Positions 6,996 to 19,733 are shown, counted from the stretch's first letter. The stretch is DNA of 64,000 bases from Candidatus Kryptoniota bacterium (GCA_938074445.1 CALJEK010000001.1:1-64000), one strand, 5' to 3'. Program-made: numbers and translations. The notes: generated by a model from the letters alone, not told the origin.

Positions 6996-8360
6996 TTATG
7001 TTTTCTTTATTTTCTTTTCAAGGTCATTTACCGCAATCAAAATTGGATCCCACACTGGTGCAAATGGTGGAGCATAACTTAAATCAAGATGAGCAATTTC
7101 ATCAACGCTCAATTTTGCATGGATCGCCGTTGCAAAAACATCAATTCTTTTAGCAACGCCATCTCTTCCAACCATTTCAGCTCCAAGCAAACGCCCAGTT
7201 TTTCTATCAGCAATGAGTTTAATTCTAATTTTACCCCCGCCAGGATAATAATGTGCCCTTGAACCATGTTCGATCAAAGTTGCAACATAATCAAACCCTT
7301 CGGATTTCGCTTGCTTCTCGGAGATTCCAGTTCTAGCCACTTCAAGTTCAAAAACCTTAAACACTGCCGTGCCGACGATACCTTTAAAAACTGCGTTCCC
7401 ACCAGCTGCATTCTCACCAGCAACTTTTCCCTGTTTATTTGCTGTAGTTCCAAGAGGAAAATAAACTGGACGATTTAAAACCAAGTGATAAGCCTCAGCA
7501 CAATCACCAGCAGAATAAATTCCAGGTATATTTGTTTCCATCCTTTGATTTACCGCTATTGCACCTGTCTTCCCAATCTCAATCCCAGCTTCTCTTGCAA
7601 TCTCAGAGTTTGGTTTTATCCCAGCTCCAACCACAACAAGCTCAGAATCAATCATTTGACCATTGCTTAAAATTGATTTTTTAACATACCCGTTCTCCCC
7701 GACGAATTCGCTGACAGAAACAGCCTTTAAAAGCCTTACACCGTTTCTTTGAAGTTCTTGCTCAACGATCTCGTTTATTTCGTCATCCATCGTCCCAAGT
7801 ATATTTGGCATCTGCTCAACGATTGTAACATCTATGCCAAGTGAGACAAGCGACTCAACCATTTCCATACCTATATATCCAGCTCCAACTATCAAAGCTT
7901 TTCGCGGAGAATTTTCACCAATGAATTCTTTTATCTTGATCCCATCCTCAAGAAACCTAACCGTAAAGATGCCCCTAAGCTCAACACCTTTTATCTCCGG
8001 CTTTACAGCCCTGGCGCCTGTTGCAATTACAAGCTTATCATACCCAACCTCAAACTCTTTACCATTTTCAAGATTTCTAACAAGGATTGTCCTTTTCCCG
8101 GGAAATATTTTTAAGACTTCATGATGAATGAAAACATCAATATTTCTTTTCTCTTTAAAAAACTTCGCATCGTAAACAACTAAATCGTTCGGCGACTTTA
8201 TTAAGCCAGAGATAAAATACGGCAAACCGCACGAACCATAAGAGACAAAACCACTCTTCTCAAAAACGGAGATCTCTATATCAGGTCTTAATCTCCTCGC
8301 TCTACTTGCTGCACTCATACCTGCAGCAACACCACCAATTACAACAAGTCGTTCAGCCAT
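6996..8360 (-). CDS. CoA-disulfide reductase-like FAD/NAD(P)H oxidoreductase
   Basis: This 454-residue protein is a single-cysteine pyridine nucleotide-disulfide oxidoreductase. The FAD motif VVIGGVAAGMSAASRARR is at 5-22, the redox cysteine in SYGSCGLPYF (Cys44), the NAD(P) motif VGAGYIGMEM follows in the middle, and the second FAD motif is YSAGDCAEAYH. The family includes CoA-disulfide reductases, NADH oxidases and CoA-persulfide reductases. There is no C-terminal rhodanese domain, unlike CoADR-Rhd proteins. With SQR and a glutaredoxin in the operon, reduction of low-molecular-weight persulfides or disulfides is plausible. Confidence 0.9.
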   Translation of the reverse strand: MAERLVVIGGVAAGMSAASRARRLRPDIEISVFEKSGFVSYGSCGLPYFISGLIKSPNDLVVYDAKFFKEKRNIDVFIHHEVLKIFPGKRTILVRNLENGKEFEVGYDKLVIATGARAVKPEIKGVELRGIFTVRFLEDGIKIKEFIGENSPRKALIVGAGYIGMEMVESLVSLGIDVTIVEQMPNILGTMDDEINEIVEQELQRNGVRLLKAVSVSEFVGENGYVKKSILSNGQMIDSELVVVGAGIKPNSEIAREAGIEIGKTGAIAVNQRMETNIPGIYSAGDCAEAYHLVLNRPVYFPLGTTANKQGKVAGENAAGGNAVFKGIVGTAVFKVFELEVARTGISEKQAKSEGFDYVATLIEHGSRAHYYPGGGKIRIKLIADRKTGRLLGAEMVGRDGVAKRIDVFATAIHAKLSVDEIAHLDLSYAPPFAPVWDPILIAVNDLEKKIKKT

Positions 8361-8370
8361 AGTTTACAAG

Positions 8371-9045
8371 TTAATTTTGTTGCTTTAAAGCATCTTTTGT
8401 TTTCTTTGCTGCTTCAACAACTTTATCAACATAGTGCCTTTCGGGCAGTGCGCCCTCAAAGTAATAAATGTCATTCATCACAACCTTAGGAACACCCATA
8501 ACCATATATTTCTCGGCGAGATCCGGAAACTCAATTGCCTCTATCATATCAGCAGTGATTAAATCACTTTCCATTGCAAGTTGATGTGCAAGATGCACTG
8601 CGCTCGGGCAATACGGACACGTTGGCGTTACAAAAACCTGAATGTGAACGGGCACATCAATTTCTTTTATTTTTTCAATGCTTCTCTGACTCAAACCAGA
8701 TACCCCTCGCGACACCATTTCAATATCCGACAAAAGCGACGCAAATTCATAACCAGAAGGGATGCCAAAGTATCTTATTCCATAATCTTTATCCTCGCTT
8801 GCGATGACAGTTGCTGGAACCTTATCTATTTTGAATTCTTTTACCTTATCCTCATCTGTATAGAAATTATAAACCTCCAATTGAATTTTATCCGAAAGTT
8901 CAGAAAGCTCAGTTAAAAGTTGCTTTGTTTCCCTGCAATACTGGCAATCGAGCTCTCGCGTAAAGTGAATCAGCCTAACTTTATTAACTAAATTTTCCTC
9001 AAATCTCTTCTTCAATTCCTCTCTGTCGTCTGCATCAAGAAACAT
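8371..9045 (-). CDS. Protein disulfide oxidoreductase (tandem thioredoxin folds)
   Basis: This 224-residue protein consists of two thioredoxin folds, each with its own active site: DCQYCRE (Cys34, Cys37) and TCPYCPS (Cys143, Cys146). The cis-proline loops are KVPATVI and GVPKVVM. This is the glutaredoxin-like PDO architecture typical of hyperthermophilic archaea and thermophilic bacteria such as Aquifex, where it makes and breaks cytoplasmic disulfides, often with thioredoxin reductase. It is the first enzyme gene after the two ArsR genes. It supports a thermophilic host. Confidence 0.93.
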   Translation of the reverse strand: MFLDADDREELKKRFEENLVNKVRLIHFTRELDCQYCRETKQLLTELSELSDKIQLEVYNFYTDEDKVKEFKIDKVPATVIASEDKDYGIRYFGIPSGYEFASLLSDIEMVSRGVSGLSQRSIEKIKEIDVPVHIQVFVTPTCPYCPSAVHLAHQLAMESDLITADMIEAIEFPDLAEKYMVMGVPKVVMNDIYYFEGALPERHYVDKVVEAAKKTKDALKQQN

Positions 9046-9048
9046 AAT

Positions 9049-9342
9049 TTAATTCCTCCCTTTAGTTTTGTTTTGAATTAATTTTAAAATTTTGATCGCG
9101 ATTGGATTTAAAATTGAATAACGAACCTTCCTCCCTTCACGAACACCTTTTATAATTCCGCTATGCCTTAAAATTGAAAGATGTTGCGAGACAAGTGATT
9201 GTGGAAGTTTCACAGAGCGCCCTAATTCTGAAACAGTTTTAGCCGAACCCTTAAGTTCATCAATTATCTTGAGGCGAACCGGATGACACAAGACCTTTAA
9301 CATTTCTGTAATCTGTGCATAATCAGGCGTTTCTTCAATCAT
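9049..9342 (-). CDS. ArsR/SmtB-family transcriptional regulator (second)
   Basis: This 97-residue winged-helix repressor has the recognition helix LPQSLVSQHLSILRHSGII and the wing GRKVRYSI. Only one cysteine (Cys19, in KVLCHPVR) is present, so it lacks the CVC metal site of ArsR and the usual two-cysteine persulfide switch. It may sense through its partner, or by another route. It lies 2 bases after the first arsR gene and 3 before the PDO gene, so it is in the leader position of the redox operon. Heterodimers or sequential control are possible but untested. Confidence 0.92.
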   Translation of the reverse strand: MIEETPDYAQITEMLKVLCHPVRLKIIDELKGSAKTVSELGRSVKLPQSLVSQHLSILRHSGIIKGVREGRKVRYSILNPIAIKILKLIQNKTKGRN

Positions 9343-9344
9343 TT

Positions 9345-9644
9345 CTAATCTTTTAACTTTTCTTTTTCAAGGATTTTGGCAATTTTTATCGCAAGTGGGT
9401 GGACGACTTTGTACTTTATGTTCAATCCTTCCCTCTCTGCCCTCACAATGCCCTTCGCTCTTAACAAAGCAAGATGCTGGGAAATCTTGGGTTGAGGCTC
9501 GTCAAGGCAATCACCTATGTCACTTACACACAAATCCTGTTCAATTATACCGCATATAATTTTCAGTCTTGTAGGATGACCAATAATTTTCAATATTTCA
9601 GCCTCTTCGGTGAAATCCAATGTTTTTAACTTCTTTAAATCCAT
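9345..9644 (-). CDS. ArsR/SmtB-family transcriptional regulator (first)
   Basis: I start at the ATG at 9644 (99 residues). A longer frame to 9689 would cover the operator and the -10 box. The winged helix includes EPQPKISQHLALLRAKGIV and the wing EGLNIKYKV. Three cysteines cluster around helices 2-3: Cys31, Cys39 (DLCVSD) and Cys45. DLCVSD aligns with the ELCVCDL metal site of ArsR, but its second cysteine is serine. A thiol switch for sulfide or oxidant is plausible. It is the first gene behind a strong promoter with an overlapping palindrome, so autoregulation is likely. Confidence 0.92.
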   Translation of the reverse strand: MDLKKLKTLDFTEEAEILKIIGHPTRLKIICGIIEQDLCVSDIGDCLDEPQPKISQHLALLRAKGIVRAEREGLNIKYKVVHPLAIKIAKILEKEKLKD

Positions 9645-9650
9645 GTCCGT

Positions 9651-9670
9651 ATATTCAAATATTTTAATAT
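9651..9670. promoter_or_regulatory. Palindromic operator for the arsR redox operon
   Basis: The 20 bases read ATATT-n-AAATATTT-n-AATAT, symmetrical except at one position in each half. The site is 6 bases in front of the arsR ATG and immediately after the predicted transcription start (about 9673). ArsR/SmtB repressors bind AT-rich interrupted palindromes at such places and block RNA polymerase. This is the best candidate operator in the window. Confidence 0.6.
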
Positions 9671-9679
9671 TGCTATACA

Positions 9680-9708
9680 AATATAACAAAAATTTCGCTA
9701 TTTGTCAA
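9680..9708 (-). promoter_or_regulatory. Sigma70-type promoter of the arsR redox operon
   Basis: On the minus strand TTGACA (9703-9708) is followed by a 17-base spacer and TATATT (9680-9685). This is a near-consensus promoter with ideal spacing. It predicts transcription start near 9673, a leader of about 28 bases, and repression by a protein at 9651-9670. The -35 lies in a TTGTCA/TGACAA inverted repeat (9702-9715). Confidence 0.75.
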
Positions 9709-9884
9709 GTGACAATTTGCTAGACAAAACCGCAGAAGCCCCAAAAATTTAAATCTTTAAATAACTTTTCCGACGAAAATCCCGTGCAGTTGAAAAATTG
9801 TCAGATTTAAAAATTTAGTTTAGCGGTTTGATTCTGAACCTGTGCATTGTTATCTTTAAGCAAAGAATAAAGCAAGTTTTTAAA

Positions 9885-10589
9885 ATGAAGATTGGACTTT
9901 TCATTCCGTGTTACATCGATCAACTTTACCCCGAGGTTGGTCTTGCAACTGTAAAAATTTTAAAAAGGTTCGGAATAAATTTTGAATATCCAATTGAGCA
10001 AACCTGTTGTGGGCAACCCGCATTTAACACTGGATATTGGAAAGAGGCGAAAATCTTAGCTGAAAAGTTTATACAAATTTTCTCAAATTTTGATTACATA
10101 GTCTCCCCATCCGGCTCGTGTGTCAGTATGATTAAAATTTTTTATCCCAAAATTATTCTTACCGAAGACTTACAGGACATATCTAAAAAATCACTTGAAC
10201 TGACAGAATTTCTCGTTAAAGTTATGAATATTGACTCAACCGGTGCCGAGTTTGATCACACGGTGACATACCACGACTCATGCCACGCCTTAAGAGAACT
10301 TGGGATCAAAACCGAGCCCAGAATTCTTTTAAGAAATGTTAAAAAACTAAAATTGATCGAGATGGAAAATCCCGAAGATTGTTGTGGCTTTGGGGGAACA
10401 TTCTCCGTTAAGTTTCCAGAAATATCATCCGATATGGCAAAGTATAAGGTTAATTATATTTTAAATTCAGGCGCTGAATTTGTAACCTCCACAGACCAAA
10501 GTTGCCTTATGCAAATCGACAGTTATGCAAGAAAGAACAACTTAAACATCAAAACAATCCACATCGCACAAATTCTATCAAACTTTTAA
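9885..10589 (+). CDS. lutA: Lactate utilisation protein LutA, Fe-S oxidoreductase subunit
   Basis: I start at the ATG at 9885 (MKIGLFIPCYIDQLYPE), which is the family N-terminus; an in-frame ATG at 9828 would add a non-conserved tail. The product is 234 residues. It carries both CCG-domain motifs, EQTCCGQPAFNTGYW and EDCCGFGGTFSVK, which bind an Fe-S centre. LutA, LutB and LutC together oxidise L-lactate to pyruvate in the cytoplasm. It leads lutB by 18 bases. The region in front also serves the divergent arsR promoter. Confidence 0.93.
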   Translation: MKIGLFIPCYIDQLYPEVGLATVKILKRFGINFEYPIEQTCCGQPAFNTGYWKEAKILAEKFIQIFSNFDYIVSPSGSCVSMIKIFYPKIILTEDLQDISKKSLELTEFLVKVMNIDSTGAEFDHTVTYHDSCHALRELGIKTEPRILLRNVKKLKLIEMENPEDCCGFGGTFSVKFPEISSDMAKYKVNYILNSGAEFVTSTDQSCLMQIDSYARKNNLNIKTIHIAQILSNF

Positions 10590-10607
10590 CAAAAATTTAA
10601 AATCACA

Positions 10608-11987
10608 ATGAACTATATACCATCAAAATTTAGAAATAACGCCGTAAAAGCTCTTCTAAATGTAAATCTGAGAAAAAACCTGACCCGCGCTATCTCTCAT
10701 ACACTTTCAAAAAGGGTTGAGGTTGTTTCGGAACTTCCAGACTGGGAAAACTTAAGACAAAAGGCTCATGAGATAAAAAAACATACCATTGAGAACCTTG
10801 CTTATTATCTTGACCTATTTGAAGAAAGAGCAACAAAGAACGGAGTAAAAATTTTCCGTGCCAAGGATTCAATTGAAGCAAAAAATTACGTGCTTCAAAT
10901 AGCAAGAAAAATAAATGCAAGATTATGCGTTAAATCAAAATCAATGGTAACCGAAGAGATTGGATTAAGGGAGTTTCTGGAGGAAAATGGTATTGAAACA
11001 GTTGAAACTGACCTCGGCGAGTTTATCGTTCAGCTTGCTGGTGAGATGCCATCGCACATCACAGCTCCAGCGATGCATAAATCAAGAGATGAGATTGGGA
11101 AACTCTTTTCAGAAAAACTTGGGGTGAAATTCACTAACGAACCTGAAAAATTAACAAACATCGCAAGGGAATTTTTGAGGCATAAGTTTTTAAATGCCGA
11201 TCTTGGCATATCAGGCGCAAATTTTCTCATAGCTGAGACGGGCTCCATTGTGATAGTTGAAAATGAAGGAAACGCGGGTTTAAGCACAACTATCCCAAAA
11301 GTGCACATTGCTATTACAGGAATAGAAAAAGTAATCCCGCGACTTTCTGATTTAACCGTTTTCTTTAAAATTTTGGGCAGAAGCGCAACAGCTCAGAGAT
11401 TCACAAGCTATGTTTCAATTATAAACTCACCGAAGAAGAACAAGCCAGATTCACCTGAGGAAATTTATGTGATTTTGCTTGACAATGGTAGAACAAATTT
11501 GTTAAAGTCCGAGAGGTTAAAACAAGCACTTTACTGTATCAAGTGCGGTGCTTGTATGCTTACTTGCCCTGTTTATCAAAGAGTGGGAGGTCATACTTAT
11601 GGTTCAATTTATCCTGGTCCAATTGGCTCTGTGCTAACTCCAGCGCAGTTGGGGCTTAGAGACGCGCTGCTTTTACCGTTTGCGTCCTCCTTATGCGGAA
11701 AATGCTTTGAAATTTGCCCAGTAAAAATTGAAATACATCATCTTCTACTTCAACTTAGAGCTCAAGCTGTTGATTTGGGATTTGCATCTTGGCTTGAAAA
11801 ATTGATCTTTAAACTATGGTTTATCGTTATGCGAAATTATAAACTTTACACATCTGCCTCCAAATTTTTAAGATATCTTCTCAAGTTAGGGATTAAACCA
11901 AAAGTTAAATCTTGGTCAAAGGAACGAATCTTCCCTGAGCTTGCACCGAAATCTTTTAAAGAAATATGGAGAAACCAAAAAACATGA
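10608..11987 (+). CDS. lutB: Lactate utilisation iron-sulfur protein LutB
   Basis: This 459-residue protein has an N-terminal LUD domain (about 60-300; SGANFLIAETGSIVIVENEG is its core), then a two-cluster ferredoxin module with KCGACMLTCPVYQ and CGKCFEICPVK, and a C-terminal tail. It matches LutB/YkgF, the electron-transferring subunit of the L-lactate oxidation complex. Length is normal. The lutC start codon overlaps its stop (ATGA), so subunit translation is coupled. Confidence 0.95.
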   Translation: MNYIPSKFRNNAVKALLNVNLRKNLTRAISHTLSKRVEVVSELPDWENLRQKAHEIKKHTIENLAYYLDLFEERATKNGVKIFRAKDSIEAKNYVLQIARKINARLCVKSKSMVTEEIGLREFLEENGIETVETDLGEFIVQLAGEMPSHITAPAMHKSRDEIGKLFSEKLGVKFTNEPEKLTNIAREFLRHKFLNADLGISGANFLIAETGSIVIVENEGNAGLSTTIPKVHIAITGIEKVIPRLSDLTVFFKILGRSATAQRFTSYVSIINSPKKNKPDSPEEIYVILLDNGRTNLLKSERLKQALYCIKCGACMLTCPVYQRVGGHTYGSIYPGPIGSVLTPAQLGLRDALLLPFASSLCGKCFEICPVKIEIHHLLLQLRAQAVDLGFASWLEKLIFKLWFIVMRNYKLYTSASKFLRYLLKLGIKPKVKSWSKERIFPELAPKSFKEIWRNQKT

Positions 11988-14918: not shown

Positions 14919-15896
14919 ATGGAATACAGACAATTTGGACAAACTGAAATTCAAGTCCCCGTTATAACTTTTGGCGGATGGGCAATCGGTGGATGGTATT
15001 GGGGTGGAACAGATGAAAAGCTTGCAATTGAAGCGATTCATAAAGCAATTGACCTTGGGATCAATTGTATTGACACCGCTCCAGTTTACGGATTTGGGTT
15101 GGGGGAAGAAATCGTTGGCAAAGCAATTAAAGGTAAAAGAAATGATGTTATTATAGCGACGAAGTGCGGTCTGAGGTGGGATAAAGACGAGGGGGAATTT
15201 TTCTTTGATACTTATTTCAACGGAAAAAGATATTATGTTTACAAAAACGCTCGAAGGGATTCCATAATTGAAGAATGCGAAAGAAGCTTAAAAAGACTTA
15301 ACACCGATTACATAGACATTTACCAAATTCATTGGCCTGATAAAACAACCCCAATTGATGAATCGCTTGAAGCCTTGACCCGACTTCAAGAACAAGGAAA
15401 AATAAGGACTTTTGGGGTCAGCAATTTTGATCTAAACCTTTTAAAAGAAACCTTGAAATATGCAAGGGTTGAAAGTGATCAAGTAAAATATAGCTTGATA
15501 GATCGCGCTATAGTAAATGAACTTTCCGAATTTTGCCTCGAAAATAAAATTTCAATCCTCGCCTACAGCCCACTTGAGCAGGGGCTTTTAACAGGCAAAA
15601 TTACGATGGAAACTGAATTCAAAAGTGGTGACTTAAGAAAAAAACAATTTTGGTTCCAACCTGAAAACAGAAAGAAGGTCCTTGATGCGCTTGAAAAAAT
15701 AAAACCAATTGCGAAAGAAAAAAACGCAACTCTCGCCCAGATTGTTATCAACTGGACTTTTTCGCAACCAGGCATCACAACAGCGATTGTGGGCGCAAGA
15801 AATCCAGAACAAGTTGAAGAAAATGCTGGAGCAGTGAATTTTAAACTCACCGACGATGAAATTAAAAAGATAAGTGAAGCGTTTATATGGGAATAA
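14919..15896 (+). CDS. Aldo/keto reductase
   Basis: I start at the ATG at 14919 (325 residues, MEYRQFGQTEIQ, the usual family beginning); an ATG at 14904 is possible. The tetrad is Asp52 (NCIDTAP), Tyr57 (PVYGFG), Lys82 (ATKCGL) and His138 (YQIHWP). A TIM barrel with an NADPH site (TAIVGARNPEQVEEN) follows. It is close to the YhdN/general-stress AKR group and may reduce carbonyls in the cytoplasm. It overlaps the M1 peptidase gene by 10 bases. Confidence 0.93.
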   Translation: MEYRQFGQTEIQVPVITFGGWAIGGWYWGGTDEKLAIEAIHKAIDLGINCIDTAPVYGFGLGEEIVGKAIKGKRNDVIIATKCGLRWDKDEGEFFFDTYFNGKRYYVYKNARRDSIIEECERSLKRLNTDYIDIYQIHWPDKTTPIDESLEALTRLQEQGKIRTFGVSNFDLNLLKETLKYARVESDQVKYSLIDRAIVNELSEFCLENKISILAYSPLEQGLLTGKITMETEFKSGDLRKKQFWFQPENRKKVLDALEKIKPIAKEKNATLAQIVINWTFSQPGITTAIVGARNPEQVEENAGAVNFKLTDDEIKKISEAFIWE

Positions 15897-18800
15897 AACT
15901 TCGTCTCATTGTAAAATTATCCTTCCCTATTTTAATCATATCAAATTTTTTACTTGCTCAAAGGTCTAATTACTTCCAGCAGAGGGTTGACTATGTGATG
16001 GATGTCTTTCTGGATACGAAAACACATAAACTTACCGGGAAACAAATAGCAACTTATTATAACAACTCACCCGACACGCTTTGGGAAATTTATTACCATC
16101 TTTATTTAAATGCGTTTAAACCCGGCAGTTCAATGCAAATCCGTGGTGATGTTATCAGAAATGCACTCGGTGAAAGGATCAGAGGGATGAAACCTGATGA
16201 ATACGGTTGGACAAATGTTAAATCTTTAAAGGCTGATGACGAAGACATCGATTTTGAAATTTTTGATACAATTTTGAGGGTAAGACTTAAAAAACCGCTC
16301 GTTCCTGGTCATTTTGTGAAGATTGAAATGGAGTTTGAATCTCAAATACCAAAACAAACGCGCAGAAATGGACGGGACAATCGTGAAGGAATTGATTACA
16401 GCATGGCTCAATGGTATCCCAAAATTTGCGAATATGACTTTGAAGGGTGGCACGCAGACCAATACATTGAACGAGAATTTTATGGGGTATGGGGAAATTT
16501 TGATGTAAAAATAACTTTGCCATCAGATTACCTCGTTGGAGCAACAGGGGTAATTCAAAACCCAAACGAAGTTATGTGTGGTTATGAGCTCGGTCCAGTT
16601 GATACGCTAATATTCCCACAGCAATGGAAAAAAGAATTAAAAACACAACTTAAAACCTGGCATTTTAAAGCCGAAAAAGTTCACGATTTCGCATGGGTTG
16701 CGGACAGAGATTACATCCACGAAATAACATGGATGACCCTTGAGGATGATACCGTTATAATTCATCTTCTCTACCAACCTGACGTTTATCCTCTCTGGAG
16801 GGAAACAGGAAAATTTACAAAGGAGATAATAAAACTTTACAGCGAATGGTTTTATAAATATCCCTACAAGAGCTTTACAGTTGCACAAGCAGGCGATGGA
16901 GGTATGGAATATCCAATGCTTATAATGATAACGGGATACCGTGGAAGAACAAGTATGATTGGAATTTTGGCGCATGAAATTGGACACAACTGGTTTTATG
17001 GCTTAATCGGAAATAATGAATCAAAAGAGGCATGGATAGATGAAGGTGGAGCAAGTTTTGTAACCCCAAGGGTTTTTAAAAAATTATTAGGTGAGAAATG
17101 GAGGAGCGATTTTTCTACGCTTGATAACCTATTAAGACCTGAATCTGATATCTTCGGCGGTTATAAAAATTACATAAGATTTTCAAAACTTGGTTATGAA
17201 GAGCCAGTTCTCTTACACTCGGATTTCTTTCGTGAGCCCATCACTTACACAAATGCAGTTTATGGTAAGGGTGCTTCAATTTTCGAAATGCTTGAGTACG
17301 TGGTTGGAGACAGCGTGTTTGCTCTTATTATGAAAGAATTTTTCAAAGAATGGAGTTTCAAACATCCAACGACTAAAGACTTTGAAAGGGTTGCCGAAAG
17401 GGTAAGTGGGATGGAGCTTGATTGGTTCTTTGATCAATGGCTTAAAACCACAAGAAAATGTGATTACGCCATTGAAAGTTTCTCTGGCAAATGGGTAAGT
17501 GAAAATGGTTTGAGAAAATATAACATCAAAGTTAAACTGCGCAACTATGGTCAAATTGTTATGCCCATTGACCTTTATATTTATTTTGAAGACGGGACAT
17601 ATCAAAAAGTCATAATACCGCTCGACCTCCAGCTTAAGCCAAAGAAAGAACCCAACGCAATAATTCTTCATCCATGGTTTTGGGTTAACCCAGTTTATGA
17701 ATTCGAGCTTTCCTTTGATAAGAAAGTGAAAATGGTTGAAATTGACAGCGGATTAAAACTTAGGGATGTTAACAGGTTAAACAACAGAACGGGCGTTTTC
17801 AACAAGGTTCAGATAAAACTACTTGAGCAAACTCAATTAAACCCACCTCTTGAAAAATATTGGTTTAGTATAAGACCGTCAATTTGGTTCGCACAGAGAG
17901 ATGGAGTAAGACCTGGAATTTTTACAAATGGAGCTTATCTTTTCGATTATCACGAAACAAAAATTGGTTTGTGGTATAACACGAGGACAAAAAATTTCGA
18001 TTATTTTATAAACTATCGCAACAATACCCTCCCTATACTTGAAAGGTTAAGTGGTTTTCAAGTTGAGATTTTTAAACTTCACGGTTTGAGAAGGCTTTAC
18101 TTCGAAATCTTTAAAGACATAAGACCTCTTTATCTAACAGTCCCCCCATTTTACAACATTTCATTATTTTTTGAACACACCATGCTCGTTGAAAATAAGA
18201 TTCCCTTTGTAAATCTGAAATGGGATTTGGGGAAGTTCAATATGCTCGGGCTTACAGCAGGAATAACTCACATAATTGGTAACACATCTTTATACGGAAC
18301 TTTTGCCCTAAAAACAACATCGGCAAATAGCACTAAAAATTTTACCAAGTTTTCAATTGAAATAAAGCAAAATACAACTTCAAGTAAATTTGAATTCGCA
18401 ACGAGATTTTATTTCGCAAACTCTTACGGTCAAACACCAACACAGGAAAAATTTTATTTCGTTGCAAACCCACACGAGCAGTTTTTAAATCAATCCTTTA
18501 GAATGATTTACCTAATTGACGAGAAATTTTCTGAAAAAGCAAGACTATTTCTAAAGGGTGGCTTTAACTTAAGAGGCTATTTTGACAGAACTGATACATG
18601 GGTTGAAAAGGGGGGAAGCCTAAGCTTTGACTTAACATTTTTAAAGCTGAGAGATTTTATATTTTTCAGGCTGATAAAATTTTCTGCTTTCGGAGATATA
18701 GGTATAATGAAAGCGGGGGAATTATCACCGCCTTTGGTAAAATTCTTAGAAGACACAACAAAGGCTTATGCGATTTTGTATGACTATGGTTTTGAAATTA

Positions 18801-18949
18801 AATTTCAACCTTTTACATTTATTCCATCCATTGCTGAAAATTTAGTTGCAAGTTTTAACAGATTGAGCATAAGCATGGTATTTCCAGTTGGTTTAACTTA
18901 TGAAAAACCGAGATTGAGATGGGCTGTCGAAATAAAGGTTGAGAGATGA
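15887..18949 (+). CDS. M1-family metallopeptidase fused to a probable Omp85-like beta barrel
   Basis: This 1020-residue protein has a signal peptide (about 1-24). The gluzincin catalytic part (about 30-580) contains GGMEYPM, HEIGHNW (His363, Glu364, His367) and the third zinc ligand Glu386 (WIDEGG), exactly 18 residues on. The C-terminal 400 residues are rich in alternating aromatic/polar strands. They include KGGFNLRGYF (Arg896-Gly897-Tyr898), which resembles the RG[FY] motif of Omp85 barrels, and the chain ends AVEIKVER. It is probably an outer-membrane-anchored peptidase. The barrel call is inference; the peptidase call is firm. Confidence 0.85.
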   Translation: MGIKLRLIVKLSFPILIISNFLLAQRSNYFQQRVDYVMDVFLDTKTHKLTGKQIATYYNNSPDTLWEIYYHLYLNAFKPGSSMQIRGDVIRNALGERIRGMKPDEYGWTNVKSLKADDEDIDFEIFDTILRVRLKKPLVPGHFVKIEMEFESQIPKQTRRNGRDNREGIDYSMAQWYPKICEYDFEGWHADQYIEREFYGVWGNFDVKITLPSDYLVGATGVIQNPNEVMCGYELGPVDTLIFPQQWKKELKTQLKTWHFKAEKVHDFAWVADRDYIHEITWMTLEDDTVIIHLLYQPDVYPLWRETGKFTKEIIKLYSEWFYKYPYKSFTVAQAGDGGMEYPMLIMITGYRGRTSMIGILAHEIGHNWFYGLIGNNESKEAWIDEGGASFVTPRVFKKLLGEKWRSDFSTLDNLLRPESDIFGGYKNYIRFSKLGYEEPVLLHSDFFREPITYTNAVYGKGASIFEMLEYVVGDSVFALIMKEFFKEWSFKHPTTKDFERVAERVSGMELDWFFDQWLKTTRKCDYAIESFSGKWVSENGLRKYNIKVKLRNYGQIVMPIDLYIYFEDGTYQKVIIPLDLQLKPKKEPNAIILHPWFWVNPVYEFELSFDKKVKMVEIDSGLKLRDVNRLNNRTGVFNKVQIKLLEQTQLNPPLEKYWFSIRPSIWFAQRDGVRPGIFTNGAYLFDYHETKIGLWYNTRTKNFDYFINYRNNTLPILERLSGFQVEIFKLHGLRRLYFEIFKDIRPLYLTVPPFYNISLFFEHTMLVENKIPFVNLKWDLGKFNMLGLTAGITHIIGNTSLYGTFALKTTSANSTKNFTKFSIEIKQNTTSSKFEFATRFYFANSYGQTPTQEKFYFVANPHEQFLNQSFRMIYLIDEKFSEKARLFLKGGFNLRGYFDRTDTWVEKGGSLSFDLTFLKLRDFIFFRLIKFSAFGDIGIMKAGELSPPLVKFLEDTTKAYAILYDYGFEIKFQPFTFIPSIAENLVASFNRLSISMVFPVGLTYEKPRLRWAVEIKVER

Positions 18950-18950
18950 A

Positions 18951-19733
18951 ATGGGTCGAATTTACTTGATTATGCTGGCATTGTTTTTAATTTTTTATCT
19001 TGTCGAAAGCGCAATTCCACAGAACAATTTTGAACCTAAGGATGAATACCTTGAATATCACGCTTTCTGGGGTTTTATAAACCTTGGCAGTATAAAAATT
19101 TGGAACGAGACGAACAACGGATATATCAAATCACGATTTCAGCTGGATTCAAACCCGTGGCTTTTTTTTATAAATCTCCACTATGGATTTGAAAGCGAAT
19201 TCAGAATCGATTCATTGCTTGATGCCAAATTTCTAATTTATGAGACAAAAAAGGGTAGAGAAATTGTAACGGTCTTTGAGAAAAAGAACGACAAAATAGT
19301 TGCAATACAGAAAGATCTCAAAACCGGAGAAATAATTGAAGTTATTGAAAAAAATACGAGAAGTTTTTACAATGGAATCACTGCCTTTTTCTTAACAAGA
19401 CGACTTCTCGGAGCGAATTTAAATTCTGTAATTCCAGTTTTAATTCAACTTGATGTAAAGAATGTCGAGGTAAGTTTCCCCCCTGAAAATACAACTGTTA
19501 AGTTTTTGAATTCATATGTAAATGTGAAAAAAGTGAAGGGTTTCATACCTTTTATCACTGAGGAAATCGCCGGCGTCACGGGCGACTTTATAGCGTATTA
19601 TTCGGATGACTCAGCAAGAATCCCAATTAGGGCATATTTTAAAACATCGATTGGCAACGTTAAGGTTGAGCTTGTCAAATGGGAACGGCAAAATTGGAAA
19701 CCTGTACATTTGGCGGATAAAAATAAAAAATAA
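18951..19733 (+). CDS. DUF3108 domain secreted protein
   Basis: I start at the ATG at 18951 (260 residues), which puts a signal peptide (MGRIYLIMLALFLIFYLVES) at the front; an ATG at 18939 is also in frame. The rest fits DUF3108: EYLEYHAFWGFINLGSI, GFESEFRIDSLLDAKFLIYE, then a beta-rich C-terminus with FKTSIGNVKVELVKWE. The fold is a periplasmic lipocalin-like barrel; function is unknown. It follows the M1-barrel gene directly. A second DUF3108 gene is at 60302. The pair may assist envelope biogenesis. Confidence 0.8.
   Translation: MGRIYLIMLALFLIFYLVESAIPQNNFEPKDEYLEYHAFWGFINLGSIKIWNETNNGYIKSRFQLDSNPWLFFINLHYGFESEFRIDSLLDAKFLIYETKKGREIVTVFEKKNDKIVAIQKDLKTGEIIEVIEKNTRSFYNGITAFFLTRRLLGANLNSVIPVLIQLDVKNVEVSFPPENTTVKFLNSYVNVKKVKGFIPFITEEIAGVTGDFIAYYSDDSARIPIRAYFKTSIGNVKVELVKWERQNWKPVHLADKNKK

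Follow-up and report, generated by a model that had tools for sequence, protein, structure and literature searches.

Members of Omp85, the family that constructs the outer membranes of bacteria, are familiar as machines for assembly and translocation. What, then, does an Omp85-type barrel do when the rest of the chain is a zinc peptidase? The question is raised by a gene, which we call M1-Omp85, in a 64,000-nucleotide stretch of DNA from a Candidatus Kryptoniota bacterium (GCA_938074445.1 CALJEK010000001.1:1-64000; hereafter, the window). Positions 15887–18949 of the plus strand, on which all features given below in window coordinates also lie, form a single uninterrupted frame of 1020 amino acids plus stop, called as an open reading frame and matched by orthologues in relatives. 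The closest relatives of the 1020-residue protein come from Candidatus Kryptonium thompsonii (90% identity) and Candidatus Chrysopegis kryptomonas (74%), indicating that the window derives from a Kryptonia-type bacterium. A preliminary description of this DNA had proposed an M1 peptidase joined to an Omp85-like barrel, and our analysis recovered both halves, the first by a Pfam match and the second by fold search and profile comparison. We favor, with a probability of about 0.6, the reading that the protein is a periplasmic M1 aminopeptidase for which a repurposed Omp85 barrel provides the outer-membrane anchor, much as in PlpD but with a peptidase head. Both domains, with their motifs and conservation, were identified here by computation, as were the fold class and the barrel's single apparent loss; these are described first.

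The N-terminal half matched PF01433 (Peptidase_M1) at residues 314–518 (E=4e-18; 66.2 bits, with the cut-off at 27.7), and M1 structures ranked first when the full-length protein was compared with the PDB by sequence and by fold. Within the catalytic domain (residues 301–526; 16787–17464), motif search and alignment located HEIGH (363–367; 16973–16987), with zinc ligands His363 and His367 and catalytic Glu364, and the third zinc ligand, Glu386 (17042–17044); the preliminary description had named the same three ligands. It had overlooked GGMEYP (338–343; 16898–16915), the GxMEN-type motif for the substrate N-terminus, and Tyr459 (17261–17263), the presumed catalytic tyrosine. Judged by sequence, GGMEYP, HEIGH, Glu386 and Tyr459 make up a complete M1 active site. 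In an alignment of 63 rows (62 distinct, the query having entered twice), MEYP, H363, E364, H367, E386 and Y459 showed no variation at all. Every full-length row has Tyr where GxMEN has Asn, and E341 is invariant.

The predicted structure of this half follows the usual M1 layout: an N-terminal beta domain (residues 30–300; 15974–16786), delimited by predicted strands and conserved QQ..DY and Y.N.SPDTL motifs, the catalytic domain, and a beta-sandwich domain (M1 domain III; residues 527–620; 17465–17746) that is all-beta, not POTRA, and just past which barrel-less relatives stop. The protein thus shares the beta domain, the thermolysin-like catalytic domain, HExxH-18-E, GxMEx and the beta-sandwich domain with M1 aminopeptidases such as aminopeptidase N, leukotriene A4 hydrolase and IRAP. 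It differs from them in having GGMEYP instead of GxMEN and in lacking the C-terminal helical domain that is usual, although not universal, in M1 enzymes: no such domain was found past residue 520 of the predicted structure, in which the helices of the barrel half are short and confined to loops. In the model, the barrel directly replaces the helical domain that covers the active site in most M1 enzymes.

AlphaFold2, run on an alignment of 29 relatives, returned a full-length model with a mean predicted local distance difference test score of 84 and a predicted template modeling score of 0.81. Within the last 400 residues, previously described as looking like barrel strands, a 16-stranded barrel was predicted at residues 658–1019 (17858–18943), with strands 1–8 at 658–669, 673–684, 689–698, 703–712, 722–731, 734–745, 755–767 and 782–797, and strands 9–16 at 800–811, 819–831, 836–848, 906–924, 927–943, 962–974, 992–1003 and 1013–1019. 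The same segment predicted by itself again gave 16 strands. Because M1 peptidases swamped the fold search with the full-length model, the barrel alone was modeled for this purpose; all 50 of the best listed PDB matches were then TamA, BamA or Sam50 (E from 3.7e-7).

Family databases are almost silent on this half. PF01103 matched 3 of 41 family members (E down to 0.00097) and NCBIfam NF047779 matched 1 of 41, while the C-terminal part of the window protein had no Pfam match, PF01103 included; a paralogue on contig 39 of the same genome reached 19.2 bits with PF01103, against a cut-off of 24. Profile and fold comparisons were therefore used to identify the barrel. In profile–profile comparison, it matched the Omp85 proteins of its own genome with a score of 60.4 and a probability of 93.5%, whereas TonB-dependent receptor barrels gave 0.3%, and other barrels less than 2%; among 40 column shuffles, the highest score was 14.4. 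For the window protein, the Omp85 profile match proposed earlier as a check was obtained from profile–profile comparison but not from PF01103; a match of the latter kind helps to recognize Omp85 proteins without defining them. The sparse database matches would suit a C-terminal domain that merely resembles Omp85, whether as a 16-stranded barrel of unrelated origin or as a beta domain outside the membrane. We regard this as extremely improbable in view of the specific fold matches, the controlled profile match, and the positions and joint variation of the sequence motifs described next. On the basis of these models, the C-terminal half is an Omp85-type barrel.

Omp85 barrels bear two signature motifs that form the lid lock, (V/I/L)RG(Y/F) at the tip of loop 6 and (F/G)xDxG on strand 13 (PMC4490367). 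In the window protein, the RGY noted earlier at 896–898 occurs only once and lies within LRGY (895–898; 18569–18580) in predicted loop 6 (849–905; 18431–18601), between strands 11 and 12, while FGDIG (935–939; 18689–18703) lies inside the predicted strand 13 (927–943). As far as strand number and motif positions go, the model withstands the refuting condition set in the preliminary description (a predicted structure with no closed barrel or without the lid-lock motif position), and it places both motifs where the lid lock is described. In BamA and TamA, the Phe of FxDxG is accommodated by a glycine on strand 14, and FhaC has Gly instead of Phe (PMC4490367). The first residue of FGDIG is Phe, as in BamA and TamA and not as in FhaC, and Gly968 (18788–18790), on predicted strand 14 and near-invariant in the alignment, is the probable counterpart of the strand-14 glycine.

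R896 and D937 occur together in 42 of the 62 distinct rows, the window protein among them, and are both missing in the other 20; no row has just one of them. Among 85 variable barrel columns, R896 is the sole column that agrees with D937 in every row. On the tree, three changes account for the joint loss, and two of these fall on branches with good support; the pattern is consistent with coevolution, short of statistical proof. The catalytic residues are retained in all lineages that miss the pair. Like BamA, TamA and Sam50, the protein has the barrel topology, the loop 6 motif, FxDxG on strand 13 and the glycine on strand 14; unlike them, it has a peptidase head and no POTRA, and the lid lock is dispensable in part of the family.

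These features bear on whether the barrel could itself be an active Omp85 translocase or insertase, with the peptidase trimming the same substrate during passage or assembly, for processing or quality control. Intact lid-lock motifs with FxDxG, as in BamA and TamA, in 42 of 62 relatives (the window protein among them), the strict tracking of D937 by R896, and purifying selection on the barrel (see below) speak for such an integrated device. However, POTRA was absent among the families matched by the 41 M1-Omp85 members at E values up to 1, the lid-lock pair was lost in at least two supported lineages that retained the peptidase, and POTRA-bearing Omp85 proteins are encoded separately in the same genome, one of them with strong BamA-like POTRA repeat matches. 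We consider this possibility unlikely. Membership in the Bacteroidota BAM complex was also considered and dropped, because no peptidase is among its named subunits (PMC12611786).

The full M1-Omp85 architecture was present in 7 of 7 genomes searched of the Kryptonia genus, usually with a second copy, and also in Ignavibacteria, KSB1, Neomarinimicrobiota, Calditrichota and several Bacteroidota families. It forms a widespread family in Bacteroidota and neighboring phyla, peptidase-headed and POTRA-less, that adds to the PlpD-type enzyme-carrying barrels. In Ignavibacteria, M1-Omp85 genes occur as a tandem pair (L004:4959-8141 and 8337-11441; also G164, G243 and G262).

In a tree of the peptidase domain, barrel-bearing forms were scattered throughout, and nested among them was one supported clade whose 41 members, from Flavobacteriia, Chitinophagia and others, have no barrel. 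This suggests a single loss of the barrel, apparently in the Flavobacteriia/Chitinophagia line, which kept the peptidase alone. Chains of this clade stop just past domain III, and most retain GGMEY. The short secreted M1 peptidases of Flavobacteriia and Chitinophagia (about 630 amino acids) have the same peptidase unit, about 40% identical, but end right past the beta-sandwich domain without a barrel. Other barrel-less forms (Gemmatimonadota, archaea) sit close to the midpoint root; the root was placed at the midpoint, not inferred, so the tree does not distinguish a single gain from an older origin of the barrel. Archaeal barrel-less members of the same M1 family come from Thermoplasmata and Hermodarchaeota (L062, L063, L064 and L066), as expected from the lack of an outer membrane in these archaea.

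Both halves are under purifying selection, weaker on the barrel: within the genus, the ratio of nonsynonymous to synonymous substitution rates was 0.04 for the peptidase and 0.09–0.18 for the barrel. Mean pairwise identity was 20% for the barrel and 38% for the peptidase. The enzyme was never given up, whereas Omp85-specific features of the barrel were lost more than once, and for this reason we read the barrel mainly as an anchor. An anchor is preferred to an engine because the protein has no POTRA, R896 and D937 are missing in 20 of 62 rows, a barrel-less clade is nested within the family, and the barrel diverges faster. The family thereby provides a natural series, with the lid lock kept, the lid lock lost or the barrel lost, in which the role of an Omp85 barrel without an assembly function can be asked.

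On which side of the membrane would the peptidase work? Residues 1–24 (15887–15958) read as a signal peptide, with a predicted helix at 2–27, and cleavage is likely before Gln25. A simple pattern search found a lipobox in none of the 62 full-length M1-Omp85 rows, ruling out a lipoprotein anchor, and in 1 of 52 barrel-less rows. One alternative is that the barrel exports the M1 domain by type Vd autotransport and that environmental peptides are digested outside the cell, from which protein-degrading heterotrophs would benefit; secreted peptidases near related loci also fit this view. However, the N- and C-termini of 16-stranded barrels are periplasmic, which counts against a peptidase on the cell surface, and export of the folded head, about 600 residues long, would mean unfolding it and passing it through a narrow barrel. 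Moreover, the type Vd model was overturned for PlpD itself by topology experiments (PMC11116518). Export to the surface therefore appears decidedly unlikely.

In PlpD, an Omp85 barrel keeps a patatin enzyme in the periplasm, where this head was shown to remain (PMC11116518). M1-Omp85 resembles the PlpD-type (type Vd) patatin–Omp85 proteins in having an enzyme head and, C-terminal to it on the same chain, a 16-stranded Omp85 barrel; it differs in that the head is an M1 zinc peptidase (PF01433), not a patatin lipase, and in that no POTRA lies between head and barrel. Because the order of signal peptide, enzyme and barrel is the same as in PlpD, the M1 head should, by analogy, face the periplasm. 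The preliminary description had spoken of an unusual surface or periplasmic machine; of its two locations the periplasm is now much the likelier, while a machine that actually translocates or inserts proteins has become less likely, because POTRA is missing, the lid-lock pair is jointly lost in about one-third of the family, and the whole barrel is lost in one large clade.

In the anchored-aminopeptidase reading that we favor, the protein would cross the inner membrane via Sec, and its POTRA-less C-terminal barrel would fold into the outer membrane. The zinc peptidase would then be suspended from the barrel in the periplasm, just beneath the outer membrane, where it would trim N-terminal residues from peptides; their most likely source would be secreted or periplasmic endopeptidases, or entry from outside. 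The barrel would serve as an anchor and positioning device, not as an insertase. We infer the periplasmic side, catalysis, peptide substrates and the anchor role from the features described above. A closer coupling can also be imagined, in which the barrel is a pore for peptides, with loop 6 as its gate, and incoming peptides are trimmed by the peptidase at the inner mouth of the barrel. In keeping with this idea, the peptidase would sit directly under the barrel, and it lacks the helical domain by which M1 active sites are normally closed. Yet loop 6 closes the Omp85 barrels of BamA and TamA, no sign of a pore was seen here, and the barrel-less clade retains the enzyme, making coupled uptake highly improbable.

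Among possible roles we favor peptide catabolism, because genes for M14, HtrA-type, C25 and M61 peptidases lie next to or near the M1-Omp85 gene in relatives. In one clade of Neomarinimicrobiota, an M14 carboxypeptidase is encoded by the next gene downstream at seven loci (L042, L043, L044, L045, L048, L049 and L052); at another Neomarinimicrobiota locus (L038), the next gene downstream encodes an HtrA-type protease. In L039 and L034, peptidases of families C25 and M61 are encoded two genes downstream. The M14 zinc carboxypeptidases at the seven loci have an InhA-like MAM domain and mostly also a dockerin match.

Several observations weigh against the anchored-aminopeptidase reading as a whole. 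The template modeling scores of the barrel against known Omp85 structures are only 0.41–0.52 when normalized to the query, and model confidence drops to 46–78 in the last strands and is also low in part of loop 6. Clear purifying selection on the barrel would perhaps be needless for a mere anchor. Finally, the gene context behind a catabolic role is drawn from other phyla, without comparison to a background rate, and the neighbors in Kryptonia encode a cupin, an aldo/keto reductase, a DUF3108 protein, an epimerase and a methyltransferase, with no protease among them.

No description of an M1–Omp85 fusion was found in the open-access literature searched, a search that left most subscription papers and the domain-architecture databases outside its scope. 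The Omp85 survey of Heinz and Lithgow in 2014 distinguishes ten subfamilies, and an M1 domain occurs in none of them (PMC4104836). Its 'Metallo' subfamily is similar in combining an Omp85 barrel with an N-terminal metallo-enzyme and in being described without POTRA, but the head in that case is PF00149, whereas the PF01433 head of the window protein is a metallopeptidase by sequence. PF00149 had no match in the window protein or in the family members scanned. In Pfam, this family is the calcineurin-like phosphoesterase, not a protease. The name 'Omp85-metalloprotease' (PMC4104836), repeated in PMC11116518, thus rests on a phosphoesterase family; the literature's class was named after a phosphoesterase domain, and genuine peptidase–Omp85 proteins went unlisted.

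The gene order cupin, aldo/keto reductase, M1-Omp85, DUF3108, NAD epimerase and methyltransferase is kept in Ca. Kryptonium thompsonii and Ca. Chrysopegis kryptomonas, and a third Kryptonia relative with a shorter contig preserves it from the M1-Omp85 gene onward. This synteny, together with purifying selection on both halves, rules out a chance fusion or an assembly error. The downstream DUF3108 gene (18939–19733, with an alternative ATG at 18951; PF11306, E=6.4e-7, and synteny) overlaps or abuts the M1-Omp85 gene and is adjacent to it in the three Kryptonia relatives compared. Its product has a signal-like N-terminus and is possibly a partner of M1-Omp85.

The same genome encodes at least three kinds of enzyme-headed Omp85 protein. 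A patatin–POTRA–Omp85 protein of the PlpD type is encoded on the minus strand of contig 9 (L168:698-3436). On contig 37, a plus-strand gene (L171:570-3413) encodes a WD40-like/PD40 Omp85 protein of 948 amino acids with an apparent gluzincin peptidase head, in which Peptidase_MA_2 (PF13485) matches residues 132–266 just over the cut-off and the sequence reads KHELIH ... WFTEGLAEFW; propeller repeats follow, and then a barrel with LRGY and FFDAG. Only the propeller is mentioned for the WD40-Omp85 subfamily as described in 2014. The second M1-Omp85 copy, the divergent paralogue on the plus strand of contig 39 (L172:2625-5708), is 33% identical to the window protein. The C-terminal residues of the window protein and its close orthologues are charged (ER/EK), whereas the contig 39 paralogue keeps the classical C-terminal Phe.

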